From contig CANSEY010000006.1 of the NCBI GenBank assembly GCA_947646015.1, positions 1 through 64,000 on the forward strand: a DNA stretch of 64,000 nt, given 5' to 3'. The DNA comes from an uncultured Bacteroides sp. (lineage in GTDB: Bacteria; Bacteroidota; Bacteroidia; Bacteroidales; Bacteroidaceae). Both the position numbers and the translations under genes were made by a program. Below, one piece after another: positions 43,355 to 59,167 of this stretch. Numbering within the stretch: the stretch's first letter is position 1; each line of letters starts with the position of its first letter. The notes under the pieces are model-generated. The model did not search any database and had not been told where the DNA came from. It worked only from the letters and a program-made list of their open reading frames with translations.

Positions 43355-43382
43355 AGATACATCACGCTAAATAATAAATGAA

Positions 43383-44414
43383 ATGCGATTAACCAACTTA
43401 CTATTTACGACACTTTTACTATTTGTTTCCGTCTTTGCACGAAGTCAGAAGAGTAATGAATTTACAGTACTGCAATGGAATGTATGGCAGGAAGGTACGA
43501 TGGTACCGGGAGGATATGACGCTATTGTCAATGAGATTGTTCGCCTGAAACCGGACTTTGTAACTTTCAGTGAAGTCAGGAATTACAATAAGACGAATTT
43601 CACAGCCCGCGTCTGTGCTTCGCTGAAAGAGAAGGGGCTTTCGTATTATTCTTTTTATAGTTATGACACGGGGCTGCTGAGCAAACATCCTATCACCGAT
43701 TCCCTGACTGTTTTTCCCGAGAAAGACGATCACGGAAGTATCTATCGCCTGACCAGTTCGGTAAACGGGCATAAGGTAGCGGTTTACACGTCACATCTGG
43801 ATTATCTGGATTGTGCATACTACAATGCCCGCGGCTATGACGGTTCTACCTGGAAGGAAATACCGTTGCCGGCATCGGTAGAAGAGATACTGAAAGTAAA
43901 CGTTGCTTCCCAGCGTGACGATGCTATCCGTTTGTTTATCACTCAGGCTGAGAAAGACCTGGCAGCAGGGTATAAAGTGATTATCGGCGGTGACTTTAAC
44001 GAACCGTCTCACCGTGACTGGATAGAGAAGAATAAAGATATGTACGATCACAATGGCTTCGTTGTGCCCTGGACGGTAACGACTTTGCTCGAAGAAGCCG
44101 GATTTGTAGATAGTTACCGCAAGATATATCCCAATCCCTTGACACATCCCGGCTTTACTTATCCTTCGGACAATCCGGCAAAAACTCCGGAGAAAATCAC
44201 ATGGGCTCCCAAAGCAGACGAGCGGGACCGGATCGACTTTATTTTCTATAAAGGCGAAGGACTGGATGCAAGGAAGGCGGTCATCTTCGGACCGAAAGGT
44301 TCTATTGTCCGCGCACAGCGCGTGCAGGAGACATCCAAAGATAAGTTCTTATTGCCGCTTGATGTATGGCCAACCGATCACAAAGGATTGTTGGTTACGT
44401 TTATCTGTAAATAA
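43383..44414 (+). CDS. Secreted endonuclease/exonuclease/phosphatase-family hydrolase
   Basis: A 343-residue protein with a signal peptide (to FARSQ) and the EEP fold: LQWNVWQEG (metal Asn), FSEVRNY (metal Glu), VYTSHLDYL, GGDFNEPSHRDW and the final WPTDHKGLLV (catalytic Asp/His). This superfamily includes DNases, sphingomyelinases and phosphoinositide phosphatases; being exported, it is more likely to act on a phosphodiester in the periplasm or outside than in DNA repair. It lies 28 bp after trkA and may be cotranscribed. It is the last gene before the accessory island. Confidence 0.85.
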   Translation: MRLTNLLFTTLLLFVSVFARSQKSNEFTVLQWNVWQEGTMVPGGYDAIVNEIVRLKPDFVTFSEVRNYNKTNFTARVCASLKEKGLSYYSFYSYDTGLLSKHPITDSLTVFPEKDDHGSIYRLTSSVNGHKVAVYTSHLDYLDCAYYNARGYDGSTWKEIPLPASVEEILKVNVASQRDDAIRLFITQAEKDLAAGYKVIIGGDFNEPSHRDWIEKNKDMYDHNGFVVPWTVTTLLEEAGFVDSYRKIYPNPLTHPGFTYPSDNPAKTPEKITWAPKADERDRIDFIFYKGEGLDARKAVIFGPKGSIVRAQRVQETSKDKFLLPLDVWPTDHKGLLVTFICK

Positions 44415-44528
44415 TATCAGTAGCATCTATATTTTCTTCATCCTATATAAATAAAAACAAATATTATCTGTCACCTGTCACTGTTTTAGATGTAACAGGC
44501 TGATTTTTAGGTATAAATATGGTGACGG

Positions 44529-44585
44529 CAACGAGTGACAGCAGTGTGATGGCAGAATTTGCCGTCACGCTGTTGCCACTCGTTG
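44529..44585. repeat. Left boundary hairpin (25-bp imperfect stem)
   Basis: A 25-nt arm beginning CAACGAGTGACAGCAGTGTG pairs with 44561-44585 with about four mismatches and a 7-nt loop. The same core occurs in the right-hand hairpin at 59014-59074. Confidence 0.75.
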
Positions 44586-44586
44586 T

Positions 44587-44760
44587 AGTTTATTTAGGGG
44601 TATTCTGTAAATGTCCTTATTTTCTATAAATGAATAGGATAATATTAATTTTTAGAGATTTTTCTCTTCATTTTTTATATACAGATCTCAATTATTCTTC
44701 CTTTTTTGATAATATTATTTACATATCTGTATCTTACATCCTGAAATCATGATGTAGGGG
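44587..44760. repeat. Left copy of ~173-bp direct repeat flanking the island
   Basis: This segment matches 58590-58761 in the same orientation at roughly 85% identity by eye, including an identical stretch of about 40 bp (44695-44735 region, with TTTTTTGATAATATTATTTA). It has no coding content. Confidence 0.8.
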
Positions 44761-45433
44761 CCTGCCTTTTAGCAGGAAGTTAATAAACTTTTCCGTTTTT
44801 CATGTATTAGCGCTGATTATGCCGCCAGCCTTTTCTTCTTTTCTATCTTATGATTATACACACATGACTATAGCTACACGTTCAATCTGATATACGTAGT
44901 TTCCTAATGAGAATTGCGCATTGGGTGGCAACGAGTGGCACTAAATTTACGTTGAAAATACTAATACTAGTTAATCTTGAAGAAGTAGGCTGTGTTTTAT
45001 AGCATGTACTGCTTATTTATTATATATTTGCAATAGTTATTTGGTATGAATGATTGTGAAGAATGCAATGATATGCACATATACTGTGAAATGAATGTTT
45101 TTATTTAACGCATTGCTATTGTGCTTGCTACTCAATTATTTGATTATAGTGTGCAAATGTTTAACTATACTAGTGTCTATATAAATGCTACCAGATAGAT
45201 AGCTGGTTTTCATTTATTGGTTCTATATTTAAATTTTTAATATGGTCAAACAATTTGTTTATAGGGATTCTCTCGAAAAGAATCAATCCAATAATATTTT
45301 AGATAATATAAAGGTTTGTTCTAAAGGATTTTAGTATATAATGAATATTGACTCGTCCTGCAGACAAACCAATATACGCATAATTTAAATTAATTTGTAA
45401 TCACCACTTAGACTAATTATAAAGCAATTATAA

Positions 45434-46525
45434 ATGAAATCATTATTTTTAATTTTGTTTTTATCAGTTATGTTTATTTCTTGTAAGGATGATAATAACC
45501 TACGAGAAATTACTGACGACGAGAAGATTTTTGAATATATTGGATTAAAAGATAAAGCAAATGTAATAGAGGCCCAAGAAAAAGTTTGGAATACTTATGG
45601 GCGTCCTTATAGACCGTCTGTTCAAGTAGTTGATGGATATATTTACATAGCAACGTGGTCGGGGATATATCGAAAGCCAGCGAAGTCGTTGAATAACATG
45701 GACTGGGAAAAGTTTGCGTTCTCCGGTCTTCCAGTAATCCAGTTTGTTATGAAGGGGGATTCTATAATTGCAATTACAGCTTGCACTGACGAGAAGGCAT
45801 TTGTGCTTTCAACAGATGGTGGAAAAACTTGTAAGGCGATAACGCCACCGGAGTTTTTAATTGAAGAGAATGAGTTAAAGGTCATACCTTACTCAATATC
45901 TCAAAACTCCCAAAATGCGAATTCACTATTGGCTTTGGTCGAACCTATTGGAGTAGTGAAATCGGTAAATTTTGGAAAAAGTTGGAAGACTATCAGTACT
46001 TTTTATGGCGGCTATCAGAATTGGTTTGTTGGATTTCATCCTCAAGACACTACAAATATTTACAATACAGGGGAAACTATGATATTTGAATCTTTTATTA
46101 ATGCTTCTTGTAATGATGGGAAAGATTGGATAATACTTGAGAATGAAAGAAATAATTGTATACATCATATAGCTTTTGACCCAACTAATCCAAATATAAT
46201 GATATATTCAGGGGAATATTTTTTAAAGAAAACTATAGATAAAGGTCGGATTTGGAATCCTGTTTTGAAGGATGATGTATATTTTTACAAAACAATTTAT
46301 GATAAGAGAAATCCACAAATACTATATTCTACTGGAGTCACCCGTATTCCTAAAGAAGAACATAAATTTACAATTCATCATTCTACTGATGGTGGTGATA
46401 CATGGTCTATACTTTATCAAGCCGATTTATTGGGTGTAGGTGGAATTATTGATATTGAACAATATGATGATATTTTAATACTTTATACTTATACTGATGG
46501 TATTTATATCTATCGAATCAAATGA
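45434..46525 (+). CDS. Lipoprotein with BNR/Asp-box-like repeats
   Basis: A 363-residue lipoprotein (hydrophobic signal with lipobox MFISC). The mature part is built from repeats containing the Asp-box or near variants: STDGGKTCKAI, SVNFGKSWKTI, TIDKGRIWNPV, STDGGDTWSIL. Such repeats form beta-propellers in sialidases, sortilin-like and photosynthesis-stability proteins, but no sialidase arginine triad is evident, so it is more likely a binding or scaffold protein at the cell surface. AT-rich codon use differs from the PUL genes. First gene of the island. Confidence 0.75.
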   Translation: MKSLFLILFLSVMFISCKDDNNLREITDDEKIFEYIGLKDKANVIEAQEKVWNTYGRPYRPSVQVVDGYIYIATWSGIYRKPAKSLNNMDWEKFAFSGLPVIQFVMKGDSIIAITACTDEKAFVLSTDGGKTCKAITPPEFLIEENELKVIPYSISQNSQNANSLLALVEPIGVVKSVNFGKSWKTISTFYGGYQNWFVGFHPQDTTNIYNTGETMIFESFINASCNDGKDWIILENERNNCIHHIAFDPTNPNIMIYSGEYFLKKTIDKGRIWNPVLKDDVYFYKTIYDKRNPQILYSTGVTRIPKEEHKFTIHHSTDGGDTWSILYQADLLGVGGIIDIEQYDDILILYTYTDGIYIYRIK

Positions 46526-46644
46526 ATAATACTTCTCTTGGTCACTTTTATGCAAAATTTCCTAGAGGAAAATTTACAATACTTGCCCGTGCAAAGTACA
46601 ATCAGTTAGGCAGAGAAGAAAGATGCTCCTTATCTAAGTTATAA
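46522..46644 (+). CDS. Possible 40-residue ORF, perhaps a transposase remnant
   Basis: An ATG overlapping the stop of the preceding gene (ATGA) opens a 40-residue frame ending in KYNQLGREERCSLSKL. The YNQLGREER string resembles the N-terminus of IS30-family transposases, where such a segment precedes the helix-turn-helix, so this may be a fragment of one. The ORF is short and the resemblance weak. Confidence 0.3.
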   Translation: MNNTSLGHFYAKFPRGKFTILARAKYNQLGREERCSLSKL

Positions 46645-46752
46645 ATAGTGGCAAAATGTTAGGGTGTTCAGTTTGACATTCTTAATGCAATTGTTATCGT
46701 ACTGTTAAATTCTTCTCTAAAATGAGAACATCAAACTGGGCATCCTAGAACT

Positions 46753-48558
46753 TTAGTAATATAAGAAGAACTGCGATCCGGCATTTACTGTAAATGGCGG
46801 ATTAATGATAACAGTTTGAATAAAATTGAATGTTAAGGTGGCATTATTCGTTACAGTAACATTTTGAGAAAAGATGTTCATTCCAGAAACTGTTTGAGTG
46901 TATGATACCGTTTGGTCATTAAAATAGACATTCTCGCCGCCTGCTAAAGATACTGCTGCATAGGCATCTAGCAAACCATATCCCATTTCATTATTCCAAG
47001 TTCCATTTAATCTGTTAGACGTTGTCGAATATGCATAGTTTCCAACTTTTCGTGCGCTTTTCTCTAGAATATCAACAACCTGTTTTTGAGTTAAGTTGGG
47101 ATTAACCGATATTACTAAAGCCGCAACAGCAGCAGCTGTAGGACAGGAAAAGGAGGTACCACTTATTGAAGTGGAATAATTACTTCCAGTTGTTGTTGTG
47201 CATACATTTTCTCCCGGAGCTACAATATCTAATGCTGTGCCATAATTGCTAAAAGAAGATCTTGAACCATTTCGGTTATTAGAACCTACAGCAAGTATAT
47301 CTGGATTGCAATTAGCGGGATAACCCACTGTTGATGAGTAGTCATTTCCTGTAGCAAACACAACAACGCATCCTTTTCCAGATCGTCCACTTGTTAAGGC
47401 ATTTGAGATTGCGTCGTTAATTATTGAATATGCAACACTTGAACTCCATGAATTTGAGATTACAGAAGCACCGTTTCTCCATGCAAAATTAATCCCGTCA
47501 GCTCTCTTTTGTCTACTATCCGGAGAAGATGCCAATGAATTACTAATTGACATTGACGGGCAATCTGGAGCGAGGGATGCGATACCAATACTATTATTTG
47601 TTTTTGCACTAATGAATCCTGCACAATTGGTGCCATGGGTGCCCAATACTCTACTAGGTGATGTTCCACTTTCTGTATCATAACTGATGGAATGTACATT
47701 TAAGTCGGGATGATCAAGTTGAATGCCTTGGTCGACAATAGCTACAATTACATTTTGACTTCCAGTAGTTATACTTCTGGCATTACAAAAATTCACATCA
47801 ACTCCTATAGTTCCTCCATTCTGACCTGTATTTCTTAAATTCCATTGATAATTTGAGAAATTAGAGTCATTGACACAATTAGGTGTGTCATCACTCATTA
47901 AGTCTGGTTCACTGGCTTCAAACAAATTCGTTTCATAAAACTTATTAGCTAATTCCAAAGCATTGCCAGTCGATTCTTTTGAGCATGATAATGTATACCA
48001 TAAAGGCATATATTCATTATTACCTATTATATCAACTTTATTGATAGATGCTAGTTCCATAAGTTTAGAGACGTCTTTGTCTGACTTTAATTTCACATAA
48101 TACAAGTGACTCAATCCTACTTCAGTTCCATTTTCTGTTTGAAAATATGGGGCTTCATAAATTATTCCGTTTAGTTTGGTTAAGGTCGGTGATGAAGCCG
48201 TTGTTTCAATTGTAGCCCATTTAAGATTTTTGGGTGAAGATTGCAGCTTTTTTTTCATTATCTTATTTGAAAGTTGAAGCAATTGTGGCTCTTTTACGAA
48301 CTTCAGAGTTGTTGCAGAATAACTTTTTAAAGTATTTTCGTTATTCTCATCAAAAAGAATATACTTTTTGTTATTCAATTTATTTATTCCGATTTTTTGC
48401 CCATTATACCAATAATAATCAGTAAAGGACAGTGAGCGAGTAGAAACCTCATTCCCATTCATATCACTAATGTTTTCTATTTTGTCAGAACATCCTGTTA
48501 GGAATATCAACATAAAGGCTGAAAACAAACCATATAATAAAACTGCATTTTTTTTCAT
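46753..48558 (-). CDS. Subtilisin-like S8 family serine protease, lipoprotein
   Basis: A 601-residue lipoprotein (lipobox LTGC, residue 23). A 220-residue N-terminal pro-region is followed by the peptidase S8 domain with all catalytic residues: Asp276 (AIVDQGIQLDHP), His308 (GTHGTNCAGF), Asn404 (FATGND, oxyanion) and Ser469 (GTSFSCPTAAA). A short C-terminal beta-rich tail follows. It should be an active surface or periplasmic protease. The coding is AT-rich, in line with the island. It converges with the Asp-box lipoprotein gene and is preceded by the acyltransferase gene. Confidence 0.9.
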   Translation of the reverse strand: MKKNAVLLYGLFSAFMLIFLTGCSDKIENISDMNGNEVSTRSLSFTDYYWYNGQKIGINKLNNKKYILFDENNENTLKSYSATTLKFVKEPQLLQLSNKIMKKKLQSSPKNLKWATIETTASSPTLTKLNGIIYEAPYFQTENGTEVGLSHLYYVKLKSDKDVSKLMELASINKVDIIGNNEYMPLWYTLSCSKESTGNALELANKFYETNLFEASEPDLMSDDTPNCVNDSNFSNYQWNLRNTGQNGGTIGVDVNFCNARSITTGSQNVIVAIVDQGIQLDHPDLNVHSISYDTESGTSPSRVLGTHGTNCAGFISAKTNNSIGIASLAPDCPSMSISNSLASSPDSRQKRADGINFAWRNGASVISNSWSSSVAYSIINDAISNALTSGRSGKGCVVVFATGNDYSSTVGYPANCNPDILAVGSNNRNGSRSSFSNYGTALDIVAPGENVCTTTTGSNYSTSISGTSFSCPTAAAVAALVISVNPNLTQKQVVDILEKSARKVGNYAYSTTSNRLNGTWNNEMGYGLLDAYAAVSLAGGENVYFNDQTVSYTQTVSGMNIFSQNVTVTNNATLTFNFIQTVIINPPFTVNAGSQFFLYY

Positions 48559-48595
48559 TTTATTTCATTCATTATTATGACACAATAATTATCAA

Positions 48596-49543
48596 TCAAT
48601 TACTTATTCTGTTAAGAATTCGATCTCTGCCTACGAAAAATCTTGATAGATGAAAATAATCCATGATATATGAAATAGCAATACATCCTATCGTGACAAA
48701 AGCCACTGAAACAGATGCGAAACATATCCCCGTTCTATCAAAAGTGAATAGAGGGATTAATAACTTGGACAGAATAGTAAATATGGGAGAGAAAAGGAGA
48801 ATCACAAGCGTATTCTTTCCTATAAAATAAGTGACTTTCTTTAGAATCCCGGAAATATATTTGTGTGTTTCCAAGATTATACATGTTGCCAAATAAATTA
48901 TGGCTATCCCACTCATCTCTGATCTACTAAAGTTATCCGTATTATAACAAATAATACATAACGGTAAAATTGCCCAGAATGATGCTTGAAATATAATCAG
49001 AAAAGAAAAATTGCTTTGTCTCATCCACACCCCAACTAAAAAGTATATTGCATTTATAAATATCAACAATTTGAAATCTTCCTGAGATAACAAGAACAAG
49101 CAAACTGCTAGAATAAAAAATCTTGATATGGGCTTTATCTTCTTAAATAGAAACACCACATAGTACATTACTTCACAAACCAATAGGGTATGCAAGTACC
49201 AATATGGCCCCATGGGTTCCATTAGTACCTTTCTAATTAAAAGTTCTATGCTGAGTCCATCAAAATGTTCTCGAATAGGTAAGACTGATGCTGTAACCAC
49301 ATAGCTCGCTTCCATTAATGAATATGGAATGAAGAGCCATAAAATTTCCCGGATTTTTTTTTTAGTTCCTTTATTGATATTTGTTAGATAACCTGACAAT
49401 ATCAAGAAGACCGGCATATGAAATGCATAAACGAATTGTTTCAGCAATGGATATTTCTCACTAAAATAAGCTAGATGAAATAAAACCATTAATAAAATAA
49501 GGATGCATTTCAGATAATCCAATTCCACAACTCTTTCTTTCAT
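48596..49543 (-). CDS. Acyltransferase 3 family membrane protein
   Basis: A 315-residue integral membrane protein with about ten helices. It has the Acyl_transf_3 N-terminal pattern VELDYLKCILILLMVLFHLAYF, including the conserved catalytic-type histidine, and AFHMPVFLILSGYL. Members O-acetylate or O-acylate surface sugars, peptidoglycan or lipids using cytoplasmic acyl-CoA. The gene lies 37 bp upstream of the protease gene on the same strand, but no glycan locus surrounds it, so the substrate cannot be guessed. Confidence 0.85.
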   Translation of the reverse strand: MKERVVELDYLKCILILLMVLFHLAYFSEKYPLLKQFVYAFHMPVFLILSGYLTNINKGTKKKIREILWLFIPYSLMEASYVVTASVLPIREHFDGLSIELLIRKVLMEPMGPYWYLHTLLVCEVMYYVVFLFKKIKPISRFFILAVCLFLLSQEDFKLLIFINAIYFLVGVWMRQSNFSFLIIFQASFWAILPLCIICYNTDNFSRSEMSGIAIIYLATCIILETHKYISGILKKVTYFIGKNTLVILLFSPIFTILSKLLIPLFTFDRTGICFASVSVAFVTIGCIAISYIMDYFHLSRFFVGRDRILNRISN

Positions 49544-49680
49544 ATTGTAATGGATGTAAAATAACTAAAGGCACCATTCCGTCCCTTGAACAAAATTGTT
49601 AATGAAATAAAATGGAGCCTTTAGTGTTTAGGGCACTTAGATAAAGATTTCGCATTGTCAATAAAAAAATGTACAGCAGA

Positions 49681-50334
49681 TCATTTCTGCATACTCTTCA
49701 GCGTATTAATTTCTTCGGTTAATGTTTTGACAGCATCAATTAAAACTGGAATTAGTGCTGTGTAGTTAATTAATTTTTTTCCATCCGGATCGGTTAAAAC
49801 GAGATTTGGAAAAACTAATTCCACTTCTTGAGCAATTAATCCAATTTCTTTCCCATCGCCACCGACTTTAAAAGTACTGCGATCTGAACTGTCTTGAAAA
49901 TCATACTTAACAGGTTTGAGTTGTAGCAGTTTAGATACACTATTTATACTACGTCCTAATGGTTGGATATTCTTTTTTGCTGCTAAGTCGGAGTAGTTGT
50001 ATACATTCTTCACTTGAATACTATTATATGTATTCGTACCTGTATTATAAAATATAATTTGGTCATAGTGACTTGCTATTCGAGTTGCAGCAGGATTGGT
50101 GTCTATCTGTAAGAAATGTCCTACATTGGGTCCAGCCAACCAAATATTTCCTCTCAGTGTAATGTTATAATCTTTGGTTCCATCATTATATGTACTTGTA
50201 GGACCAAAAGTTAAATATCCATTAGAGGACATTTTAAGTTGGGCATTAGCAGAAATGCTAATTACAGCAAAAAGCATAGCTAATACCAGCTTTGAAGAAC
50301 TTAATTTTTTCATAACATTAATTTTTTTAATCAA
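49681..50334 (-). CDS. Exported protein with tail-fibre type (Peptidase_S74) chaperone domain
   Basis: A 217-residue protein with a signal peptide (ISISANA) and a C-terminal intramolecular chaperone-type domain: SDLAAKKNIQPLGRSINSVSKLLQLKPVKYDF, GLIAQEVELVFPNLV, YTALIPVLIDAVKTL and a closing coiled coil. In phage tail spikes this domain trimerises the fibre and cleaves itself. Bacteroides carry exported non-phage versions of unknown use. The self-cleaving serine is not clearly placed here. Separated from other genes by long AT-rich gaps. If the ATG at 50310 is used the signal is shorter. Confidence 0.8.
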   Translation of the reverse strand: MIKKINVMKKLSSSKLVLAMLFAVISISANAQLKMSSNGYLTFGPTSTYNDGTKDYNITLRGNIWLAGPNVGHFLQIDTNPAATRIASHYDQIIFYNTGTNTYNSIQVKNVYNYSDLAAKKNIQPLGRSINSVSKLLQLKPVKYDFQDSSDRSTFKVGGDGKEIGLIAQEVELVFPNLVLTDPDGKKLINYTALIPVLIDAVKTLTEEINTLKSMQK

Positions 50335-50715
50335 ATAAACTTAAATTCAAAAATCTCTTTATCAGACCTATTCCATAAACATTTATGCAGCTGATTCTTT
50401 TTTATAAAGTTAGGTCTGTAATATTGATACCGATAACTAATATTCTATTATATTCATTGAAATATTGATTCAATTGGACTTACAATTTTTACTCTTTAAT
50501 TCTTCAACAATCTTACAATCATCTCATTATGCACAAGATGTTTTTTGAATACACTACTTATATTTTTGTGTTCCTAGAATACAAAAAATAATTTTAGACA
50601 TTCTACAAACATTGCTTCAATGTGTTTACCATCAGTCTGTTCTCATTCAGATGCGTTTTACTAAAAATGTATTTAATTGACAGAATAGACTGTTTGTTTG
50701 CAAATATATGAAACT

Positions 50716-50731
50716 TACAGTATGTACTGTA
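50716..50731. promoter_or_regulatory. Palindrome resembling the TetR cassette operators
   Basis: TACAGTA-TG-TACTGTA, a near-perfect dyad adjoining a minus-strand TATATTTG box. Its half-site (TACTGTA) is like the one at 55982-55992 in the TetR/oxoamine synthase intergenic region. Confidence 0.45.
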
Positions 50732-51137
50732 TGATTTTGGTTTGTTTTATATAATATTAACTAATGCATGGCATTGTAATAATTATCCAATCGGAAAAGC
50801 CATTGATTATCAATAGCTTGCATACATCTATAACTTATAGGGGCATTGTGGCGAAAACATCAATTTATGTTTTGCTCATTTTTCGCAATAATTAGTGCAA
50901 TATCGTTGCAATAGTAAGAATAAAAAGGAGTGAATTTACACATTCTTTTGGCTGAATAGTTACGACTTTATTGCTACTCAATAATCTTCTGATCAATACT
51001 TTAAAAAAAAAATTAGAAATTACGTGCTTGTTGATTAAATATGTCCTCTGAAGTGAATGCCAAGTTCCCTTCGATGGAAAAGACTATATCAGAACAAGGA
51101 GTTGATATAGTCGTCTTCATCGTATCACCAATCAAAA

Positions 51138-51238
51138 CGCAACTATATACTTTATTGTACCAATCGTTATTACATCTATTATTCTCATTACAAATAATAT
51201 AATCACATAGTATTTGTTGGCTTTACATCAATATAATG
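51138..51238. repeat. Left arm of a long inverted repeat
   Basis: This 101-bp segment is the reverse complement of 55113-55242 with few mismatches; the right arm has 29 extra bp between two TTGG strings. The arms bracket 3.9 kb. Confidence 0.85.
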
Positions 51239-51279
51239 AGATATAAATATCATGCATTTACAATATAACTTTTGTATTA

Positions 51280-52287
51280 TCATGTATTAAAGTACGAAAC
51301 GACATCTTGATTCCAGACGAAAAAACTCATTACTAAATGAGAAAACTCCTCCTGAGTTAAAGAATCATTTGTTTGAAATATCTTCACTCTCTTTCCTACC
51401 TTTCTCACATCTGAACTTCTAACATGAAATCTCATTCTATCAGCAAGCTCACTTTCACTATAAATTCTAATAGCTCCATCACAATGTATAATAGAGCCCG
51501 TATCCTTATTAAAAATCGCATGGAAATATCGGCTTCCTCTAATTGTGCAATTTCCAATTGCAGGTAACTCTTCACATGTAAAGTGTATTTCGTTTTTCTT
51601 CACATTCCAAACATAGTCGGTTATACTATAATCACTATCCTCTTTTTCATTTATAAACTGTCCAAAATCATCATTTTGCAGATTTCTAATTCGGTCCCAA
51701 TTTAGTGGCTTTCCATGAATTGTCATTTTATATGCCATGGGAGTATAATCTTTGATAGGTATCTCAATGAACGGATCTAATCTGATATAGAATTTCTTTT
51801 TGTTTTTAAGTACAAGCTTAATGATTTCAAGGAATAGCCAATAAGTAGAATTATCTAAATTAGTTGATGGACATAAACGATAACCAAAGTTATTATGAAC
51901 AATTCCAATAGGCTTCAAATCAAAAAAAGAAATGTCAACAAGATTTTCATCATTGATTAAAATCTCTTTCAGATTGAGCGAGTTATAGGGTTTAAGTCTC
52001 ACTCCATTTCCTGATAATTCATCTAGTCTTTTACTCGCAATATCCCTATGCAAACGATTGATTAGAAACCAAGCCCTTCTCTCTATATCAATATTAAAAC
52101 TATCTTTAATGTAGAAATCAATTTGTTTTTCAATAACAAATAAAGAGAGTTCTTCTGCATTTATAGATTTCATATCATGGAGTAGCTTATTATATTCTGA
52201 ATGATTAGGGTTATCCAAAACTTGAAATACTTCATGAATTGGATCTGTTAAGTTGTGAGAAAAGTATTGAAGTGTTTTTAATTCCAT
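51280..52287 (-). CDS. Protein of unknown function
   Basis: A 335-residue, probably cytoplasmic protein with no signal peptide or membrane segment. It is rich in charged and aromatic residues, with a helical first third (EYNKLLHDMKSINAEELSLF) and a beta-rich middle (GIVHNNFGYRLCPSTNLDNS; FYIRLDPFIEIPIKDYTPMAY). I do not recognise a family. It lies inside the inverted-repeat bracket together with the broken lipoprotein and the transposase remnant, so it may be cargo of the mobile segment. Full-length reading frame with low-GC codons suggests it is still intact. Confidence 0.7.
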   Translation of the reverse strand: MELKTLQYFSHNLTDPIHEVFQVLDNPNHSEYNKLLHDMKSINAEELSLFVIEKQIDFYIKDSFNIDIERRAWFLINRLHRDIASKRLDELSGNGVRLKPYNSLNLKEILINDENLVDISFFDLKPIGIVHNNFGYRLCPSTNLDNSTYWLFLEIIKLVLKNKKKFYIRLDPFIEIPIKDYTPMAYKMTIHGKPLNWDRIRNLQNDDFGQFINEKEDSDYSITDYVWNVKKNEIHFTCEELPAIGNCTIRGSRYFHAIFNKDTGSIIHCDGAIRIYSESELADRMRFHVRSSDVRKVGKRVKIFQTNDSLTQEEFSHLVMSFFVWNQDVVSYFNT

Positions 52288-52544
52288 AATACATAAATAT
52301 TAGATTGTTAATGAGTTATTAAATACAAAGAACAAAGTTACTAAAAACAATTCAAACGATTGATAATTTAATAAAGTGATAGCTCCCTTTTATTACAATG
52401 CCCTTTTTGATTAACAATTCCTTTTATTTTCTTATTCCCCCCAATAGCGATTAATATGACAAAAATAGGGCATGCCAGTTTCCCAGCATGCCCTACTAAT
52501 ATTTTGATATGAAGTTCAATTACCTATGGCATAGCGCAAACATT

Positions 52545-53456
52545 CTATTGATAAATGCAGGCTCCATTCAAGCGTACGCTTTCTATTTTATTTATTGTCC
52601 AGTTTACAGCATCTGTAGAATTAGTAATATAACCGCCATAGCCTACAGCAATATATTTGCCATTACCATAAACAATACTCTGCCGCAATTCACTATTACC
52701 TGGTCACCCTTTCATTATCCAATTTATGTCATCTGTAGAATATGCAATATAGCCATTATTACCAATCACTACGTATTTGCCATTGCCATAAGCACCACCT
52801 GCCCAAGTAATTAATCCTACGATTTTAGATGTCCAATTAATTCCATCAGTGGAGTATGCAATATATCCTCCATCACCCATTACTATATATTTACCATTGC
52901 CATAAGTAGCACCATATAAGTAACGACAGGAGACTTGTTTGGTCGTCCAGTTTACATCATCTGTGGAATAACAAATATAACTAATGCTTTCATTACCACC
53001 TACTGCTATATACTTTCCGTTACCATAAGCCACTCCATATAACCACATGCCTGTTACTTGTTTGGCTGTCCAGTTTACGCCATCAGAAGAATAACCAATC
53101 ACACCACCACTGACTGCTACATATTTCCCATTACCATAAGTAATATCATTCCATGCATAGTTACTTGCTTAGATGTCCAGTTCACTCCATCGATGGAGTA
53201 TGCAATATATCCACCATATCCTACGGCTACATATCTTCCATTACCATAAGTAACGCCTTGCCAATCATTTGTGTCCTATTATCATATCTATATCTCCTGT
53301 TTTAATTTTAATAATGTCATTGGTAGATGGTGAAGCAATAGGTTCATCTGGTTTTTCAATGGGAGGTGTTATTGGTGCATCTATTTCCTCCTTGTCACAT
53401 CCAATTAACGATAAACTGGTGCAAATTACCATCACATAAAAAGTTTTTATTTTCAT
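52545..53456 (-). pseudogene. Disrupted lipoprotein with YGNGKY / STDGVNW repeats
   Basis: The frame starts at 53456 with a lipoprotein signal (lipobox LIGC) and a short Pro-rich linker, then encodes at least five repeats of the form AYGNGKYVAVG-x-x-GYIAYSTDGVNWT, a propeller-like pattern. It is broken by frameshifts near 53265 (after IIGHK) and near 53160 (within KQVT), and by an in-frame stop near 52708. Repeats continue past each break to a final stop at 52545. The three lesions show a decayed surface protein, unless frameshifting or sequencing errors explain them. Confidence 0.75.
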
Positions 53457-53598
53457 ATTTTAATGAATTATCCCACAACTACTGGGATGAGATTATATGA
53501 AGAAAACGAGTTGCACCTTTGGGCATTTTCTCCTTCTATTTTAGATTTCTACTTTTTCTATGTAACCAGCATTTCCCACTATTATTACATAATTGGGA

Positions 53599-54141
53599 CT
53601 AATGATACTTTCTTCCATTAGTTGCTACGGAGCGTCCTATATTCTTTTTGCCAGTTTTAGAAACTTTACATTTTCTACGTCCTTGGTGCTTTGCACTGGT
53701 TTTGCCACCCATATAGGTTTCGTCCATTTGTGTCATATCATCAAAGGTTGCATCATCATCCTTCATGTTTTTACGAATACGTTGTAACATAAACCATGCT
53801 GTTTTCTGAGTTACGTTGATAGATCTTGCTAATTGGGCACTGCTAAGACCTTTCTTGAATGAAAGGAAAATAGAAATAGCATAGAACCATTGGTCTAAAG
53901 GTACATGAGAACCTTCAAACATAGTTCCTATTGTAATTGTAAATCTTTTACGGCAATCCTTGCACTTATACAAACCTTTAAACTCTCCGTTTTGAGTTAG
54001 TTTATAATGATGCTTAGAAATAGAACCACAATGTGGGCAAATAGGCTCACCATGCCACCTCAACTCTTCAAGATACTCTCTACATTTCTCTTCAGTATTC
54101 AAACTTTGTAGTATTCGGTGGGACGATTTGAATGTTTTCAT
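53599..54141 (-). pseudogene. IS1595-family transposase, truncated at the 3' end
   Basis: 180 residues remain of a protein that is usually about 300. Present are the N-terminal zinc-ribbon (CPHCGS to CKDCRKRF), the IS1595 core WFYAISIFLSFKKGLSSAQLAR, and the first catalytic Asp (MDETYMGGK); the remaining DDE/DDNK residues are missing because the frame ends at NGRKYH. It cannot be active on its own. It marks past insertion-element activity inside the island, just upstream of the broken lipoprotein. Confidence 0.85.
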
Positions 54142-54337
54142 GTGTACAATTATTGATTAATAGAGAAATTGTACATGCAATGGGAGGATAATTTCAGTTC
54201 TGGAGAAGAATCTTAAGAATTTTCACAATAAAATTTAATAGCAACTGATTATTAAGTTGTTAGTAGCATTAAAACGTAGGTTTTTATTTGCTTTATGAGA
54301 GTAAATACATATTTTATCAAATCAAAATTGTATCGAA

Positions 54338-54463
54338 ATGAAAACACTTATAGAAACCCTGAATGAAACGTTGGAGAATACGTTGCAAATAGAAATTGCT
54401 AAAATGGCAGATAGTCAATCAGAAGAGAAACAAAAAGAAACAACAAATGAAGAAAATGATTAA
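54338..54463 (+). CDS. Possible small acidic protein
   Basis: A 41-residue ORF beginning MKTLIETLNETLENTLQIEI, with an acidic, Gln/Glu-rich tail. The Leu/Ile spacing suggests an amphipathic helix. No family is recognised and no clear ribosome-binding site precedes it. It lies alone downstream of the transposase remnant. Confidence 0.35.
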   Translation: MKTLIETLNETLENTLQIEIAKMADSQSEEKQKETTNEEND

Positions 54464-54570
54464 GTTTACTCGAAAATTGGTTGAAACCAAATGTTGTAGG
54501 ATAGTATAATTGTAATAATAATAAATCTTATTTTTTTCATAGTAACAAAACCTATTTCATCTTGATGAGT

Positions 54571-54714
54571 TATATTTGCACCATTATGAAAAAAGCCATC
54601 GTCATAGTGCCAAAATGACAAAGGCTTTGATAGACCTCAAAATCGTGTTGCTACACGATAAGGATGAACTTTAACATTTTACTCCACGGATGTCAGCCAA
54701 AGGCATCCGTTTTT
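54571..54714 (+). ncRNA. Candidate short RNA or attenuator leader
   Basis: TATATTTG at 54571-54578 is a perfect -7 box. About 100 bp on, ACGGATG (54686-54692) pairs with CATCCGT (54704-54710) followed by TTTTTA, an intrinsic terminator, and no plus-strand gene follows. Two tiny overlapping frames lie inside (10 and 19 codons, joined by ATGA at 54615), so it may be a leader with micro-ORFs rather than a plain small RNA. Confidence 0.4.
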
Positions 54715-54723
54715 ATTTGGAGT

Positions 54724-54855
54724 TTAATCCCCCTTCTTATGAATATGGGGTTTCAAAGATGGTGTATTTCCTGGAGTTTGCTTGTTGTCTCTTTGACGAC
54801 GGTCAGGTTTTCCTGTGGAAATAGCAATTCTTTTTGGGCCTGTTTTAATACCCAT
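54724..54855 (-). CDS. Possible small basic protein
   Basis: A 43-residue, very basic ORF, MGIKTGPKRIAISTGKPDRR onward, Pro/His/Lys-rich at the end. AAGGAAAA lies about 9 bp before the ATG, an acceptable ribosome-binding site. No family is recognised. It runs convergent to the candidate short RNA, with which it may share the hairpin at 54686-54710. Confidence 0.45.
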   Translation of the reverse strand: MGIKTGPKRIAISTGKPDRRQRDNKQTPGNTPSLKPHIHKKGD

Positions 54856-55043
54856 AATAATATTTTCCTTAGTTAAACATGTGAATTTCCCTTTTCAACG
54901 GAAGGAACTCCGCCATCTTGATTTCAGAAAGATAGGTGTAAACTGCCGTTATATCCAAAAAAATGAATTTTAAGCAAAACGGAATGCCGATGACACTGAT
55001 AATAACTTTCAAAAACAGTACCAATTAATACAAATAATCTTTA

Positions 55044-55082
55044 ACGCCACAATATCTGCCAAACTGGCAGTCATTGTGGCGT
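55044..55082. repeat. Two-tier palindrome
   Basis: Outer arms ACGCCACAAT/ATTGTGGCGT and inner arms CTGCCA/TGGCAG surround a 3-nt centre, with 2-nt interruptions on each side. A matching CATTGTGGCG also occurs at 50844-50853. Possible element end, recombination site or strong RNA hairpin. Confidence 0.7.
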
Positions 55083-55112
55083 ACTTTGTGTTTTCTCAGC
55101 TAAATCAAGAGA

Positions 55113-55242
55113 CATTGTATTGGTGTAAAGCCAATAAATACTATGTGATTATATTATTTGTAATGAGAATAATAGATGTAATAACGATTGGCACATTAAA
55201 GAGTTATACACAACCGTTGGTACAATAAAGTATATAGTTGCG
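55113..55242. repeat. Right arm of a long inverted repeat
   Basis: A 130-bp segment matching the reverse complement of 51138-51238. It ends exactly at the stop codon of the TetR gene (55243). The 29 bp absent from the left arm lie between CGATTGG and CCGTTGG, as expected of a slippage deletion. Confidence 0.85.
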
Positions 55243-55845
55243 TTATTTTTTTATTAATTGATAAATCTGCATAAATTCCCTCTTCAACTGATCAATTTTG
55301 TATCCGTCTTCATGAACGACTCCTGCAAAAGATGTTCCCAAATATATATTCTGAAATAAATCAACAAATAGCTCTATGTTGATATCATCTTTGATTTCTT
55401 TTTTAGAAATAGCATTTTTTAAAACGATTTCCCAAGTGTTCTTTTCCTTGCACAGCCATTCATTGGCGATTTCTCTCATTTTGGGCAATATATAGAAAGC
55501 GGATATTTCAATGTTTAACATTGCATTATTGACATTTGATATTCCAATCTCTAGCATCTCATCCTTTTCTTTTTGGCAAGTTTCAATAAATTGAGTGATA
55601 AAAAGGCTTAAGTTTGAGTGAAATTTCTCTGAGAGATTGGAAACGCTGTTGCGATCAAAGATAAACTTATTAACAACATTTAAAAATAAATTTTCTTTTG
55701 TTTTAATATGATATAATATTGCACCACGACTTAATCCTGTTACTTCCTCTAAATCGGCAAATGTTACTCTATCATATGGCTTATGGGCGAATAATTTGAA
55801 AGCTTCGATTAGTAGCCTATTTTTTGTTGGTTTTCCGTCTCGCAT
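55243..55845 (-). CDS. TetR-family transcriptional regulator
   Basis: A 200-residue protein with an N-terminal TetR helix-turn-helix (LIEAFKLFAHKPYDRVTFADLEEVTGLSRGAILYHIKTKENL) and an all-helical ligand/dimerisation domain with no recognised ligand signature. It is divergent from the oxoamine synthase gene at 56017, and its own promoter is bracketed by a perfect 14-bp inverted repeat (55851-55893). This suggests autorepression and control of the neighbouring enzymes, perhaps responding to a lipid-like ligand. Confidence 0.92.
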   Translation of the reverse strand: MRDGKPTKNRLLIEAFKLFAHKPYDRVTFADLEEVTGLSRGAILYHIKTKENLFLNVVNKFIFDRNSVSNLSEKFHSNLSLFITQFIETCQKEKDEMLEIGISNVNNAMLNIEISAFYILPKMREIANEWLCKEKNTWEIVLKNAISKKEIKDDINIELFVDLFQNIYLGTSFAGVVHEDGYKIDQLKREFMQIYQLIKK

Positions 55846-55850
55846 ATTTT

Positions 55851-55893
55851 TTAATTATCAGTATGTTCTGTTTGCAAATATACTGATAATTAA
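55851..55893. promoter_or_regulatory. TetR promoter with palindromic operator
   Basis: TTAATTATCAGTAT (55851-55864) and ATACTGATAATTAA (55880-55893) are perfect reverse complements 15 bp apart. They bracket a minus-strand TATATTTG -7 box (55875-55882) of the tetR gene, whose start is 6 bp away. Likely TetR operator. Confidence 0.75.
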
Positions 55894-55966
55894 TAGAAAA
55901 CAACTAAGAAAATATATACTTTTTAATATAAACAACCTTGATAACAACATTTATAGAAAAAAGTTA

Positions 55967-55992
55967 TATATTTGTACCGTATATACTGTATA
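55967..55992 (+). promoter_or_regulatory. Promoter and second operator of the oxoamine synthase operon
   Basis: TATATTTG (55967-55974) is a consensus -7 box 43 bp ahead of the ATG at 56017; no clear -33 box. Right behind it, where transcription should start, lies the palindrome TATACTGTATA (55982-55992), sharing the ATACTG half-site with the tetR operator. Confidence 0.6.
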
Positions 55993-56016
55993 ACGCACGA
56001 AACAATACACTGAGAT

Positions 56017-57285
56017 ATGAGCTACATTGTAAATTTAACGGGAAATAGAACCAGCAAAGATGGATCTATCATGGGTAAAGTCCATGATTTCAAGGAAGAA
56101 ATGGCATTGCATGAGCAAAGCGAGTTGAATGTTTATAGAAAACATCCACAATTGACTGCTTGTGATAGACGTGTAACAGTTTATAATCGCCATACTCAAC
56201 AAAAAGTGCAAGCTATTATGTTCGGATCAAACAGTTACTTGGGTGCAACTATCTTTCCTGAAGCAATTCAGAAGGCCATCGAAGTAACTAAAGAGTTTGG
56301 CATAGGATCAGGTGGTGTTCCTTTATTAACTGGAACATCCATATATCAAGAAGAATTGGAAAAACTTATTGCTAAAATATCAGGAATGGATGATACTATC
56401 CTTTTTTCTTCTGGATATACAGCTAACTTAGGAGTTATTTCAGGACTAATACGTCCAAATAATCTTATCATACATGATAAACTTGATCACGCCAGCTTGC
56501 TTGATGGCACTGTTATGTCCGGTGCAAAAATGATAAGATACAAACATGGTGATATCAATGATTTGGAAAGACTGTTAAAAGATAATAGTCCTCAATATCC
56601 CAATGGTATACTGGTTGTTACAGATGGGGTATTTAGTATGGATGGCGATATAGCAAAACTTCCACAAATTCTGGAGATAACAAGGAAATATGATGCTATC
56701 TTGCTTGTCGATGAAGCGCATGCAACAGGGGTAATAGGGGACAAAGGTGCTGGTACATTGTCACACTATGGGATTACTGATAGAAAAAATATAATTTTAA
56801 CCGGAACATTAAGTAAGGCAATCGGAACGGTGGGGGGGTATATAACGGCTTCACAAGATGTTATTGATTATCTACGGATATATGCAAGAAGTAATATGTT
56901 CTCAACTTCATTGCCGCCAAGTGTATGTGCAGCAGCTATTGAGGTAATAAAAGTGATGCAAAGTACAGAAATTGTAGAGCACTTAAAACAAAATGCTGAA
57001 TATCTACAAAATAAATTGAAAAGCGAAGGGTTTAATATAATGAATACTGAGACTCCCATTATTCCTTTGGTCGTAGGAGACCAAGCTATACTAACTCAAT
57101 TGGCAAAGGATGCTTTTGATAGTGGATTCATTATAAATCCAATTTTTCCACCGGCTGTACCAGCGAATTTGACGAGGTTTAGAATAAGTGTAATGGCAAG
57201 TCATACACAGAAAGATATGGATATGTTGGTTGAATTAATCATTAAACTGTTTGAAAAGTATGACATTTCAAGATTTGTCAAATAA
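56017..57285 (+). CDS. Alpha-oxoamine synthase family PLP enzyme (serine palmitoyltransferase/KBL-like)
   Basis: A 422-residue cytoplasmic enzyme of the family that condenses an amino acid with an acyl-CoA or acyl-ACP and releases CO2. Motifs: FGSNSYLG, GIGSGGVPLLTGTS, His158 (KLDHASLLDG), DGVFSMDGD, the cofactor Asp232/His235 (VDEAHATGV) and the PLP-lysine Lys267 (LTGTLSKAIGTVGG). Length fits serine palmitoyltransferase, KBL, BioF and CqsA-type signal synthases. It is cotranscribed with an N-acyltransferase-like gene (overlap 26 bp) and faces a TetR regulator. The combination suggests a sphingoid-like or aminoketone lipid rather than primary threonine or biotin metabolism. Confidence 0.88.
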   Translation: MSYIVNLTGNRTSKDGSIMGKVHDFKEEMALHEQSELNVYRKHPQLTACDRRVTVYNRHTQQKVQAIMFGSNSYLGATIFPEAIQKAIEVTKEFGIGSGGVPLLTGTSIYQEELEKLIAKISGMDDTILFSSGYTANLGVISGLIRPNNLIIHDKLDHASLLDGTVMSGAKMIRYKHGDINDLERLLKDNSPQYPNGILVVTDGVFSMDGDIAKLPQILEITRKYDAILLVDEAHATGVIGDKGAGTLSHYGITDRKNIILTGTLSKAIGTVGGYITASQDVIDYLRIYARSNMFSTSLPPSVCAAAIEVIKVMQSTEIVEHLKQNAEYLQNKLKSEGFNIMNTETPIIPLVVGDQAILTQLAKDAFDSGFIINPIFPPAVPANLTRFRISVMASHTQKDMDMLVELIIKLFEKYDISRFVK

Positions 57286-58471
57286 CTACTCTATAAAATG
57301 GAGTACATCTGTTAATGATATTACTTTATCTGATTGGGAAGATATATTCGGCAAAAGTATAATTAAAAGTCAACGGTTTTTCATATCTATTGAAAAATCC
57401 GATTTTCAGCAAATTACAATTTATTATTTACAAATATTTGAACATGGGACTGTCGTTGCAATAGTTCCATGCTTTAGTTATGAAATAGACATCTTAAATC
57501 TTACCACATCTCCAATGGTAAAGGCTGTGGTAAAAAAGATAAGAAAAGTCTATATTGATTTTTTCAAGATTAGAGCCTTTGTTACAGGAACATATGCTTC
57601 TAGCTGTGAACATTTTATAGAGTATAAAACAACTTTGTCTGCAGAAAAAAGGCAGATTGTCTTTGATTTAGTAAGGAAGCAATTGAAAAATAAGTGTAGA
57701 CAGACAAAATCGAAGTTTGTCTTCATTAAAGATATCAGAGGGCGTAATATTGATTCAATAAAAAAAATATTAGGTCATGATTTTTACTTTTTTTCATCGT
57801 TTCCAACAAATGTTATTCCAGTATTAAGTAGCCATAAATACCCAGAGATGTTAAAAAGCAAATACAGGAAAAGATTTCAGGATTCGCAAAAAGCATTTAA
57901 TGAGAATTTCATGTGGGAGATATCGACCGATTTTGCAAATCAAACATTATTGTTTACGGAGTTATATAACAATGTGTTAAACAAAGCAGAAAACAAATTT
58001 GAATTTTTAAATGTAACCTTCTTTGAAAACCTAAATATGCTGTTCTCTTCCAAATCTTTTTTATTGATAGCTAAAGACAAGTTAGGGGAAGTAAGATTGA
58101 TGACCTTAATTCTTGAAGATGCAAAAAGCCTTATTCCTCTTTACATGGGGATTAAATATAAAACAGATGATACTAGGGTATTATACATAACTGCATTAGG
58201 AAGAATGGTAGAGGAAGCGGAAATTAGACATAAAGATTATGTAGATTTAGGCCAGACAAGTTACTATCCCAAAGTACTGTCTGGAGCATTTGTGGAAGAT
58301 ATATATTATGGATTTTGGTCAAATCACTATTTATTAAAATGGTTAATCAAAAATGTATTTCCACGAATATTTATTCGGCAGCATATACCAGGAAACGTTT
58401 ATTTAGAGCCATACAAACAAGTGGTATATGATGTGTTAGAAAGTAAGGGATTTGTCTTGCTAAACAAATGA
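57260..58471 (+). CDS. GNAT-fold N-acyltransferase-like protein (BioF2/FemAB-like)
   Basis: About 403 residues from the ATG at 57260; a TTG at 57251 is less likely. No signal peptide or membrane helix. The second half (KYPEMLKSKYRKRFQDSQKAF; FLLIAKDKLGEVRLMTLILEDAK; YITALGRMVEEAEIRHKDYVDLGQTSY) has the layout of the acetyltransf_6/FemAB-like GNAT proteins. It overlaps the oxoamine synthase gene by 26 bp, so the products are made together, and it may N-acylate the amine product as bacterial ceramide synthases do. Family call is by pattern and position, substrate by inference. Confidence 0.65.
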   Translation: MTFQDLSNNYSIKWSTSVNDITLSDWEDIFGKSIIKSQRFFISIEKSDFQQITIYYLQIFEHGTVVAIVPCFSYEIDILNLTTSPMVKAVVKKIRKVYIDFFKIRAFVTGTYASSCEHFIEYKTTLSAEKRQIVFDLVRKQLKNKCRQTKSKFVFIKDIRGRNIDSIKKILGHDFYFFSSFPTNVIPVLSSHKYPEMLKSKYRKRFQDSQKAFNENFMWEISTDFANQTLLFTELYNNVLNKAENKFEFLNVTFFENLNMLFSSKSFLLIAKDKLGEVRLMTLILEDAKSLIPLYMGIKYKTDDTRVLYITALGRMVEEAEIRHKDYVDLGQTSYYPKVLSGAFVEDIYYGFWSNHYLLKWLIKNVFPRIFIRQHIPGNVYLEPYKQVVYDVLESKGFVLLNK

Positions 58472-58480
58472 TAATATATA

Positions 58481-58519
58481 TGCCACTAAGAAAATGACTG
58501 TTGTCACTTATTGGTGGCA
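58481..58519 (+). terminator. Candidate hairpin after the acyltransferase gene
   Basis: TGCCAC at 58481 and GGTGGCA ending at 58519 form an outer stem, with TAAG/CTTA further in. It starts 10 bp past the stop. No T-run, so a factor-dependent or stabilising role is as likely. Confidence 0.45.
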
Positions 58520-58589
58520 AATATAGACTCAAAAAAATAAGGATAATCAAAGAGGATACAGTCTTCATAATGGCCAGCAGTATAATACA

Positions 58590-58761
58590 GTTCTACTTAG
58601 GGATATTCAGTAAATGTCCTTATTTTCTATAAATGGAGAGAGGAGTATTAATTTTTAGAGACTTTTCTCTTCATTTTTTTGTGCAGATCCCAATTTTCTT
58701 CCTTTTTTGATAATATTATTTACATATCTGTATCTTCCACCCTGAAGTTATGGCATAGGGG
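58590..58761. repeat. Right copy of ~173-bp direct repeat flanking the island
   Basis: Same orientation as 44587-44760, about 85% alike by eye. Changes are scattered, so the duplication is not recent or the two are members of a repeat family. Confidence 0.8.
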
Positions 58762-58770
58762 TATAAACTG

Positions 58771-58964
58771 GTTCCATCCATTATATACAGCATCAGTAAG
58801 AAACCGCTTGATAAGTTTCCACTGCTTGAAACTAGAGTTCCATCGGTGAGAAACTGCAGTTTCATTAGTAAGAAACCATAGTTCCAAAGGCTTGAAACTA
58901 AAAGTTTCGAGCGTATGAAACCAAAGTTTCAAGCAATGGGAACTATAGTTTCAAATAGGGAAAC
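58771..58964. repeat. 22-bp periodic repeat array 3 (GTTTC/GAAAC series)
   Basis: GTTTC or GTTCC starts at 58815, 58837, 58859, 58881, 58904, 58926 and 58948: six intervals, five of 22 bp and one of 23. Each is followed after 8 bp by GAAAC or GGAAC (58828, 58850, 58872, 58894, 58917, 58939; last at 58960), making seven interrupted palindromes. A further GTTCC at 58771 lies exactly two periods before the first. The sequence is unrelated to arrays 1 and 2. Confidence 0.88.
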
Positions 58965-59013
58965 GAACTTGGCTTACTATCAGTAGAAGTGCAGAGGGTA
59001 GCTAAAATGAAAT

Positions 59014-59074
59014 AGCAACGTGTGACAGCAGTGTGACGACAATACTTGCCATCACACTGCTGTCACACGTTGCT
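59014..59074. repeat. Right boundary hairpin (perfect 23-bp stem)
   Basis: A 23-nt arm beginning AGCAACGTGTGACAGCAGTG pairs perfectly with 59052-59074 around a 15-nt loop. It shares its core with the left boundary hairpin at 44529-44585. It lies about 95 bp past the stop of the GH2 gene and could also end that transcript. Confidence 0.85.
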
Positions 59075-59167
59075 GTCACGGTCTTATGATTTAATTATCA
59101 GACTATTATCACTCGTTTGGTGACAGGTGACAGCAATTTTTCAAATATATTTCTTTATGTAGACCGA

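Follow-up and report, generated by a model that had tools for sequence, protein, structure and literature searches.

A three-gene cassette with a TetR-type regulator in an uncultured Bacteroides

Does an uncultured Bacteroides carry, beside its core sphingolipid pathway, a second enzyme pair that would build an N-acylated aminoketone under the control of its own regulator? The question is raised by a locus on contig CANSEY010000006.1 (assembly GCA_947646015.1), of which we analysed positions 1 to 64,000 of the forward strand, a 64-kb stretch hereafter called the window. In this locus, a TetR-family regulator gene is followed by a divergent alpha-oxoamine synthase (AOS) gene and by an overlapping acyltransferase open reading frame (ORF). 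An earlier note on this DNA had described the three ORFs, and all are present at the coordinates that it gave, the regulator and the synthase with Pfam matches. The cassette is conserved in other genomes and lies on an insertion. Its genes are the following:

55243..55845, minus strand: TetR-family regulator, 200 aa, divergent from the enzyme genes (PF00440 above cutoff; 37% homologues in the same divergent place in loci L014, L015 and L016)
56017..57285, plus strand: AOS, 422 aa, of a separate clade, with an N-terminal part of ~60 residues ahead of the AOS core (Pfam, NCBIfam and PDB matches, residues, trees)
57275..58471, plus strand: FemAB_like/Acetyltransf_6-type acyltransferase, GNAT fold by homology, overlapping the AOS stop; start uncertain

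The regulator belongs to the TetR family by its PF00440 match (33.6 bits against a cutoff of 24). The start of the acyltransferase, hereafter the GNAT, could be TTG 57251 (as listed), ATG 57260 or TTG 57275, the last being the position that matches the ATG start of the GNAT in three relatives. The AOS and GNAT ORFs overlap in the window, as they do at each of the three further loci described below (4/4). The GNAT fold proposed for the second protein stands by homology, the window protein itself having no family match. As the earlier note had said, no ketoreductase or carrier gene adjoins the cassette.

The cassette is conserved across genera

A scan of genome contigs with the GNAT alignment gave three loci, two of them in rumen-type Bacteroidaceae metagenome-assembled genomes (MAGs) of genus g21 (G047 and G159; L015 and L016) and one in a Muribaculaceae MAG (L014). 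The order of a TetR gene divergent from AOS and GNAT was kept in all three, so that the trio is found in 4 genomes of at least three genera, in differing neighbourhoods, and the idea of AOS plus an acyltransferase-type gene as a conserved unit is supported in 4/4 loci. Identities to the window cassette were 45-47% for the GNAT and 37% for TetR in the three loci, and 70-71% for the AOS in the two g21 genomes; the L014 AOS showed 72% over a C-terminal piece and 63% over an N-terminal piece. Between the two g21 genomes, dN/dS was about 0.013/0.51 for the AOS, 0.026/0.37 for the GNAT and 0.041/0.28 for TetR. The first two values indicate that AOS and GNAT are under purifying selection in these genomes.

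The GNAT is rare. It was detected in 6/301 genomes of the family, namely its own, G047 and G159 at full length (46-47%), G043 and G015 as fragments, and one with a remote match (22%); in 5/395 genomes of the phylum, its own and four remote at 23-28%; and in 2/158 genomes of the genus, its own and one at 26%. The fragments lie in genus g15 genomes (L007 1501-1761, 44% over 87 residues; L008 1501-1857, 36% over 117) and are possible remnants of the cassette; that of L007 adjoins ORFs that resemble transposase pieces by eye. Upstream of the cassette, both g21 genomes carry a radical SAM protein gene overlapping a second FemAB-like GNAT (L015 4832-7623, L016 4835-7626), and this radical SAM protein was found in 2/251 genomes of the family, the same two.

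Nothing was found on viral contigs with the GNAT alignment, the AOS alignment or the GNAT of locus L063 described below. AOS matches occurred in 19 phage and 681 plasmid records, every one below 60% identity; the plasmid records held no near match to window positions 52400-59100, and five of them held a distant GNAT at E up to 1. On a mobilizable Bacteroides fragilis plasmid (L057 3815-5598), another AOS, outside the cassette clade, adjoins a TetR gene near a MAC/perforin-domain gene. A record labelled as a human-faeces phage (L058 4016-5182) has a BioF-like gene with apparent biotin-operon neighbours, as judged by first residues; its protein groups with the BioF-like enzyme of the window genome, and the record is probably bacterial DNA. 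We recognised no description of the cassette in the titles and abstract openings of the papers listed for AOS, acyltransferase and sphingolipid terms, nor in passages of PMC11334938, PMC9304779 and PMC7366714.

The cassette lies on an accessory island

We compared the window with relatives of the genus; strain-specificity is to be read here as a comparison between species. The features are:

44416..59166, no strand: accessory island holding the cassette, ~14.7 kb (alignments of relatives; low GC)
53599..54141, minus strand: IS1595-type transposase piece upstream of the cassette, zinc ribbon only (PF12760; no catalytic-domain match listed)

The island is absent from three relatives. G694 and G737 join window position ~44,415 to 59,167-59,168 with ~120-130 bases between, and G698 joins 43,352 to 59,166 with ~140 bases between, so G698 also lacks the gene at 43383-44414. 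In G703, ~4.2 kb of other DNA occupies the site. The GC content is 29-38% inside the island against 45-50% outside, with 39% in the left-edge bin. Relatives running straight past the insertion and the drop in GC confirm that the cassette sits in an accessory island, as had been claimed. We infer horizontal transfer from its rarity, its low GC and the differing neighbourhoods.

The nearest relative at the GH2 gene is G702 (92%), whose contig ends there. This genome has no match to the cassette GNAT and keeps non-coding pieces of the right end (window 59064-59166 and 58806-59022, 92-93%) on two contigs, so the right edge of the insertion may be shifted leftwards by a few hundred bases in its lineage. 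Just inside the right island end, a strong inverted repeat with perfect arms of 17 nt spans 59018-59070. Other island genes encode a subtilase, an acyltransferase_3 and a peptidase S74 protein; no integrase was found among the seven further island ORFs scanned, a set of the longer ORFs. No tRNA gene was found within the window, and no Rfam match at gathering scores over 44000-60000.

Two candidate operators overlie divergent promoters

Paired palindromes beside the divergent TetR gene had also been described. Two were found, over two divergent promoters of the Bacteroides type:

55851..55893, no strand: candidate operator 1, arms of 17 nt and spacer of 9 nt, covering the -7 box of the regulator (0/2000 shuffles)
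55875..55882, minus strand: -7 box TATATTTG of the TetR promoter (TAnnTTTG consensus)
55967..55974, plus strand: -7 box TATATTTG of the AOS-GNAT promoter (TAnnTTTG consensus)
55972..55993, no strand: candidate operator 2, a 22-nt near-palindrome over the end of the AOS -7 box, weaker than operator 1, with which it shares ATATACTG

The arms of operator 1 (55851-55867 and 55877-55893) differ by one mismatch, and none of 2000 dinucleotide shuffles of the 171-nt intergenic stretch gave an equal or better repeat, a chance test that covers operator 1 only. Repeats as good occur at two other places in the 64 kb, at 474 and 59018. The shared ATATACTG is present in both palindromes, two of its 5 copies per 64 kb being here (chance mean 2.4; 9/100 shuffles reach 5). 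TAnnTTTG is the Bacteroides-type -7 promoter consensus given in a passage of PMC7366714. The intergenic stretch has one such box per strand, both TATATTTG; the motif is not rare, with 35 per strand across the 64 kb. In the other three cassette loci, TAnnTTTG boxes are likewise present on both strands.

The synthase belongs to a clade of its own

The AOS matches PF00155 (E 1.8e-59) and belongs to the alpha-oxoamine synthase superfamily; 56 PDB sequences match it, nearly all named as AOS-type enzymes, the best single match being the serine palmitoyltransferase (SPT) 8guh/3a2b (E 1e-81). Passages of PMC9304779 describe the residues conserved across AOS enzymes, and by alignment the cassette protein keeps them: N72, H158, D232, H235, T264, K267 and R389. 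The claim of a full set of catalytic residues is thus borne out.

None of the 25 NCBIfam families listed for the protein reached its cutoff. The scores against cutoffs were 387.5/426.45 for bioF, 358.3/640 for SPT (NF047600), 298.8/493 for 2-amino-3-ketobutyrate ligase (KBL, TIGR01822), 276/339 for ALAS and 190/428 for the CqsA-type family. We then placed the protein in two trees, one of 29 rows (tree 1) and one of 24 rows (tree 2, eight long-branch rows dropped and three added), neither of which included CqsA sequences. The four cassette AOS formed their own clade with support of 100/100 in both trees, and the sister of this clade was an AOS of Persicobacter together with two f17 AOS (99/96 in tree 1, 94/90 in tree 2). 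In tree 1, a branch with support of 96/98 separates the cassette and sister AOS from KBL, BioF and ALAS.

We tested whether the cassette AOS could form one clade with each known group. In tree 1, p was 0.0049 for KBL, 0.0064 for KBL with the sister clade, 0.035 for SulA, 0.095 for SPT and 0.324 for SPT with the sister clade; in tree 2, it was 0.032 for KBL, 0.038 for KBL with the sister clade, 0.037 for BioF and 0.109 for SPT. A tree-2 KBL test giving p 1e-53 was disregarded because it omitted a row nesting in KBL, and the test was repeated with that row. Both trees thus speak against a grouping with KBL, which is rejected clearly in tree 1 but with modest strength in tree 2. The earlier note had set a synthase branching inside KBL against its own proposal; what was found is a separate clade (100/100), with p 0.0049-0.038 for the KBL grouping. 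Cassette AOS fall outside the SPT clade in both trees but may be its sister, since that grouping was not rejected.

Known identities were rejected one by one: KBL on the one-clade tests and on 298.8 bits against the cutoff of 493, BioF on 387.5 bits against 426.45 and p 0.037 in tree 2, SulA on Thr297 in place of Lys and p 0.035 with one long-branch row, and CqsA/LqsA on 190 bits against 428. A one-residue difference before the GTLSK motif was dropped as a character, since it depends on gap placement.

Two positions of the alignment are of note. At position 297, the four cassette AOS all carry Thr, like the rows for BioF and ALAS, whereas the SPT rows carry Ala and the SulA row Lys. The Thr is a hint of a small amino acid as substrate and no proof of one, since it is also found in the KBL row from Bacillus. 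The common loop Arg that precedes the substrate-side Gly (SRFLNG in SPT) is Pro (VPLLTG) in the three cassette AOS covering it and in the sister clade; it is also missing from E. coli BioF and from the AOS of the B. fragilis plasmid.

A putative acyltransferase remotely related to FemAB-like proteins

The distant relatives of the GNAT (16-23% identity to the window protein) gave a 13-member alignment with 8 invariant columns, including R197, K332 and G336. PF04339 was matched by 10/13 of its members and PF13480 by 8/13, and on this alignment the GNAT is a remote FemAB_like/Acetyltransf_6 relative.

Where do such relatives occur? In G760, a genome of the same genus, one lies inside a KAS-ACP-B12 radical SAM-GNAT-radical SAM-aminotransferase cluster (L063 3259-15556; ACP, acyl carrier protein), and three further ones adjoin class III pyridoxal-phosphate (PLP) enzymes and fatty acid desaturases. 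These neighbourhoods fit lipid-like or natural-product pathways. L063 is an apparent natural-product cluster, with genes for TetR, KAS, ACP, a B12 radical SAM protein, the FemAB-like GNAT, a radical SAM protein, a partial KAS, a fusion of Shikimate_DH and class III aminotransferase, and a phosphoribosyltransferase; a SAM synthetase and a nucleosidase are suggested by first residues only. Another distant GNAT, in G530, is one ORF away from a homologue (28%) of the G760 B12 radical SAM protein, and on a Nostoc conjugative plasmid (L044 3686-17933) one is accompanied by a nitric oxide synthase oxygenase, a class III PLP enzyme, a desaturase and a DevC/DevA-type ABC exporter.

Core sphingolipid genes are present beside the cassette

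All four cassette genomes have an SPT above the NF047600 cutoff of 640, at 700.5 (window genome), 676.4, 677.2 and 660.9 bits, and a bCerS-like GNAT was also found in 4/4. The cassette is thus an addition to the core pathway and not a replacement. A CerR-like short-chain dehydrogenase/reductase (SDR), sought in the window genome, was found there at 35%, and the other AOS of this genome are its core SPT and the BioF-like enzyme (408.9 bits, below the BioF cutoff). The idea of a second system beside the core enzymes agrees with these findings, since core SPT, bCerS-like and CerR-like genes are all located elsewhere in the window genome.

A proposed pathway and its alternatives

On balance, we lean towards an acquired, self-regulated pathway under TetR control, in which the AOS would make a 2-amino-3-ketone and the GNAT would N-acylate it. 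TetR would repress both divergent promoters through the two palindromes and release them upon binding a ligand, which might be the pathway's product or one of its precursors. By its PLP-lysine K267, the AOS would condense an acyl thioester with a small amino acid, namely serine, alanine or glycine, giving the 2-amino-3-ketone and CO2; the FemAB-like GNAT would then acylate the amine to a ceramide-like N-acyl aminoketone. Because the cassette has no reductase, the keto group would either stay or be reduced by a chromosomal CerR-like enzyme. Judged from the sequences, the pair probably makes a ceramide-like molecule beside the normal sphingolipid pathway. The interpretation given to the cassette earlier is partly supported.

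Several points weigh against this pathway. Neither enzyme has a usable structure: the AOS model (3 rows) reached a pLDDT of 39.9, too poor to read, and the GNAT model (4 rows) one of 48.8, too poor to read for an acyl-CoA cleft. The window GNAT has no Pfam or NCBIfam match at E up to 1; its relatives in L015 and L016 (46-47%) pass the PF04339 cutoff of 27 bits with 30.3 and 28.3, that of L014 has no match, and the GNAT label hence rests on homology. Matches of the GNAT, and of two GNAT profiles, to PDB sequences were all at chance level. Moreover, no homology was detectable between the GNAT and the GNAT of L033, an SPT-GNAT-SDR cluster (hhalign probability 0.2% and 10.7%, against this one sequence, which we take to be bCerS-like from its gene order). 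FemAB-type proteins are also known for peptidyl transfer, so that fatty acyl transfer by the GNAT is not assured. No AOS was found in the stretches fetched around the remote phylum-set GNAT relatives L021, L023 and L024. The Muribaculaceae locus has its AOS split into two frames, perhaps through an assembly error or because the gene is a pseudogene. Finally, no matching operator repeat was found in the other three cassette loci and the operator sequence is not kept across the four, as could be expected with TetR at 37% identity.

An alternative that we hold possible but rather unlikely is that the product of the cassette is a small, diffusible signal or a natural product; the AOS would use an ACP-bound or unusual acyl group, the GNAT would add a non-fatty acyl or an aminoacyl group, and TetR would be the receptor. 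The divergent regulator layout would fit, as would the distant GNAT relatives in natural-product-like clusters, and the best NCBIfam match of TetR is the ScbR autoregulator-receptor family, far below its cutoff (37 against 150 bits). PigH-like AOS are the next group beyond the sister clade in the best 29-row tree, and they share with the cassette AOS a longer strand before the FGSN motif, as does the ALAS row. However, that grouping is weak (48/73), and tree 2, freed of long branches, leaves the branching order of PigH, the cassette group and SPT without resolution. Besides, the cassette has no ACP, exporter or tailoring gene, and the CqsA-type score of its AOS stays at 190 against 428.

Could the cassette instead encode a second SPT with its own ceramide synthase, giving ordinary sphingolipids of different chain lengths? 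We find this improbable. One clade with the Bacteroidota SPT is not rejected (p 0.095, or 0.324 with the sister clade, in tree 1; 0.109 in tree 2) and the best single PDB match is an SPT, but with 358 bits the AOS stays under the SPT cutoff of 640, whereas the core SPTs of the 4/4 cassette genomes score 661-700. It also has Thr297 where the SPT rows have Ala (position described in passages of PMC9304779), and, like the sister clade, Pro in place of the common loop Arg. That the AOS is a KBL or BioF of the housekeeping type, standing by chance beside an unrelated GNAT, is hardly credible: its best NCBIfam model is BioF (387.5 bits) and it shares T297 with the BioF and ALAS rows, but the score is below the cutoff of 426.45, the window genome has a better BioF match (408.7 bits on C57, also under the cutoff), grouping with KBL (p 0.0049 and 0.032) or BioF (p 0.037) is rejected, and the GNAT partner is kept in 4/4 loci.

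Returning to the TetR-controlled acylaminoketone pathway, a bolder version of it would have a new class of N-acylated aminoketones serve as a signal sensed by its own TetR, in a mobile lipid-signal module exchanged among Bacteroidales; the aminoketone would perhaps be 1-deoxy, from alanine or glycine, as Thr297 matches BioF and ALAS rather than SPT. We consider this version unlikely. Bacteroides sphingolipids act on the host. Work on a CD1d ligand (PMC3712910) is an example. From a rare, mobile and regulated module whose AOS is distinct and whose acyltransferase is unrelated, individual lineages could gain a further lipid or signal, and lipid surveys would take this product for strain noise. 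The locus offers a compact, testable set, made up of the two enzymes and their regulator, the two candidate operators, the three natural homologues and the sister clade of the AOS.

Comparison with known systems

The closest functional parallel is the bacterial ceramide pathway (Spt, bCerS, CerR), in which, as in L033, an AOS gene adjoins that of a GNAT-type N-acyltransferase, and the same two-step chemistry is proposed here. Unlike that pathway, the cassette has an AOS below the SPT cutoff, a GNAT without detectable bCerS-like homology, no CerR, a TetR gene beside it, and an island location. The likeness to ceramide synthesis drawn in the earlier note thus stands as a comparison of function only. 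The GNAT shares the 13-member alignment with FemAB_like (PF04339) and Acetyltransf_6 (PF13480) proteins, although the window member itself lacks a family match.

SulA, the sulfonolipid synthase (cysteate acyl-ACP transferase), is likewise a Bacteroidota AOS leading to an N-acylated lipid, but its Lys281 corresponds to Thr297 of the cassette, and the one-clade test rejects a grouping (p 0.035, long branch). PigH-like AOS of prodigiosin/tambjamine-type clusters have the longer strand before FGSN and neighbour the cassette group in one tree (48/73); their gene neighbours include ACP, polyketide synthase and class III aminotransferase genes, among others, whereas the cassette has none of these. 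The sister AOS (Persicobacter L038; L030 and L031) have in common with the cassette the Pro-Leu-Leu loop, but they carry Ala at position 297 instead of Thr. No match to the cassette GNAT or TetR was found in L030 or L031. The neighbours of the sister AOS are UbiA, DAGK and AIRS-like genes, with a radical SAM gene in L030, and SDR and P450 genes in L038.

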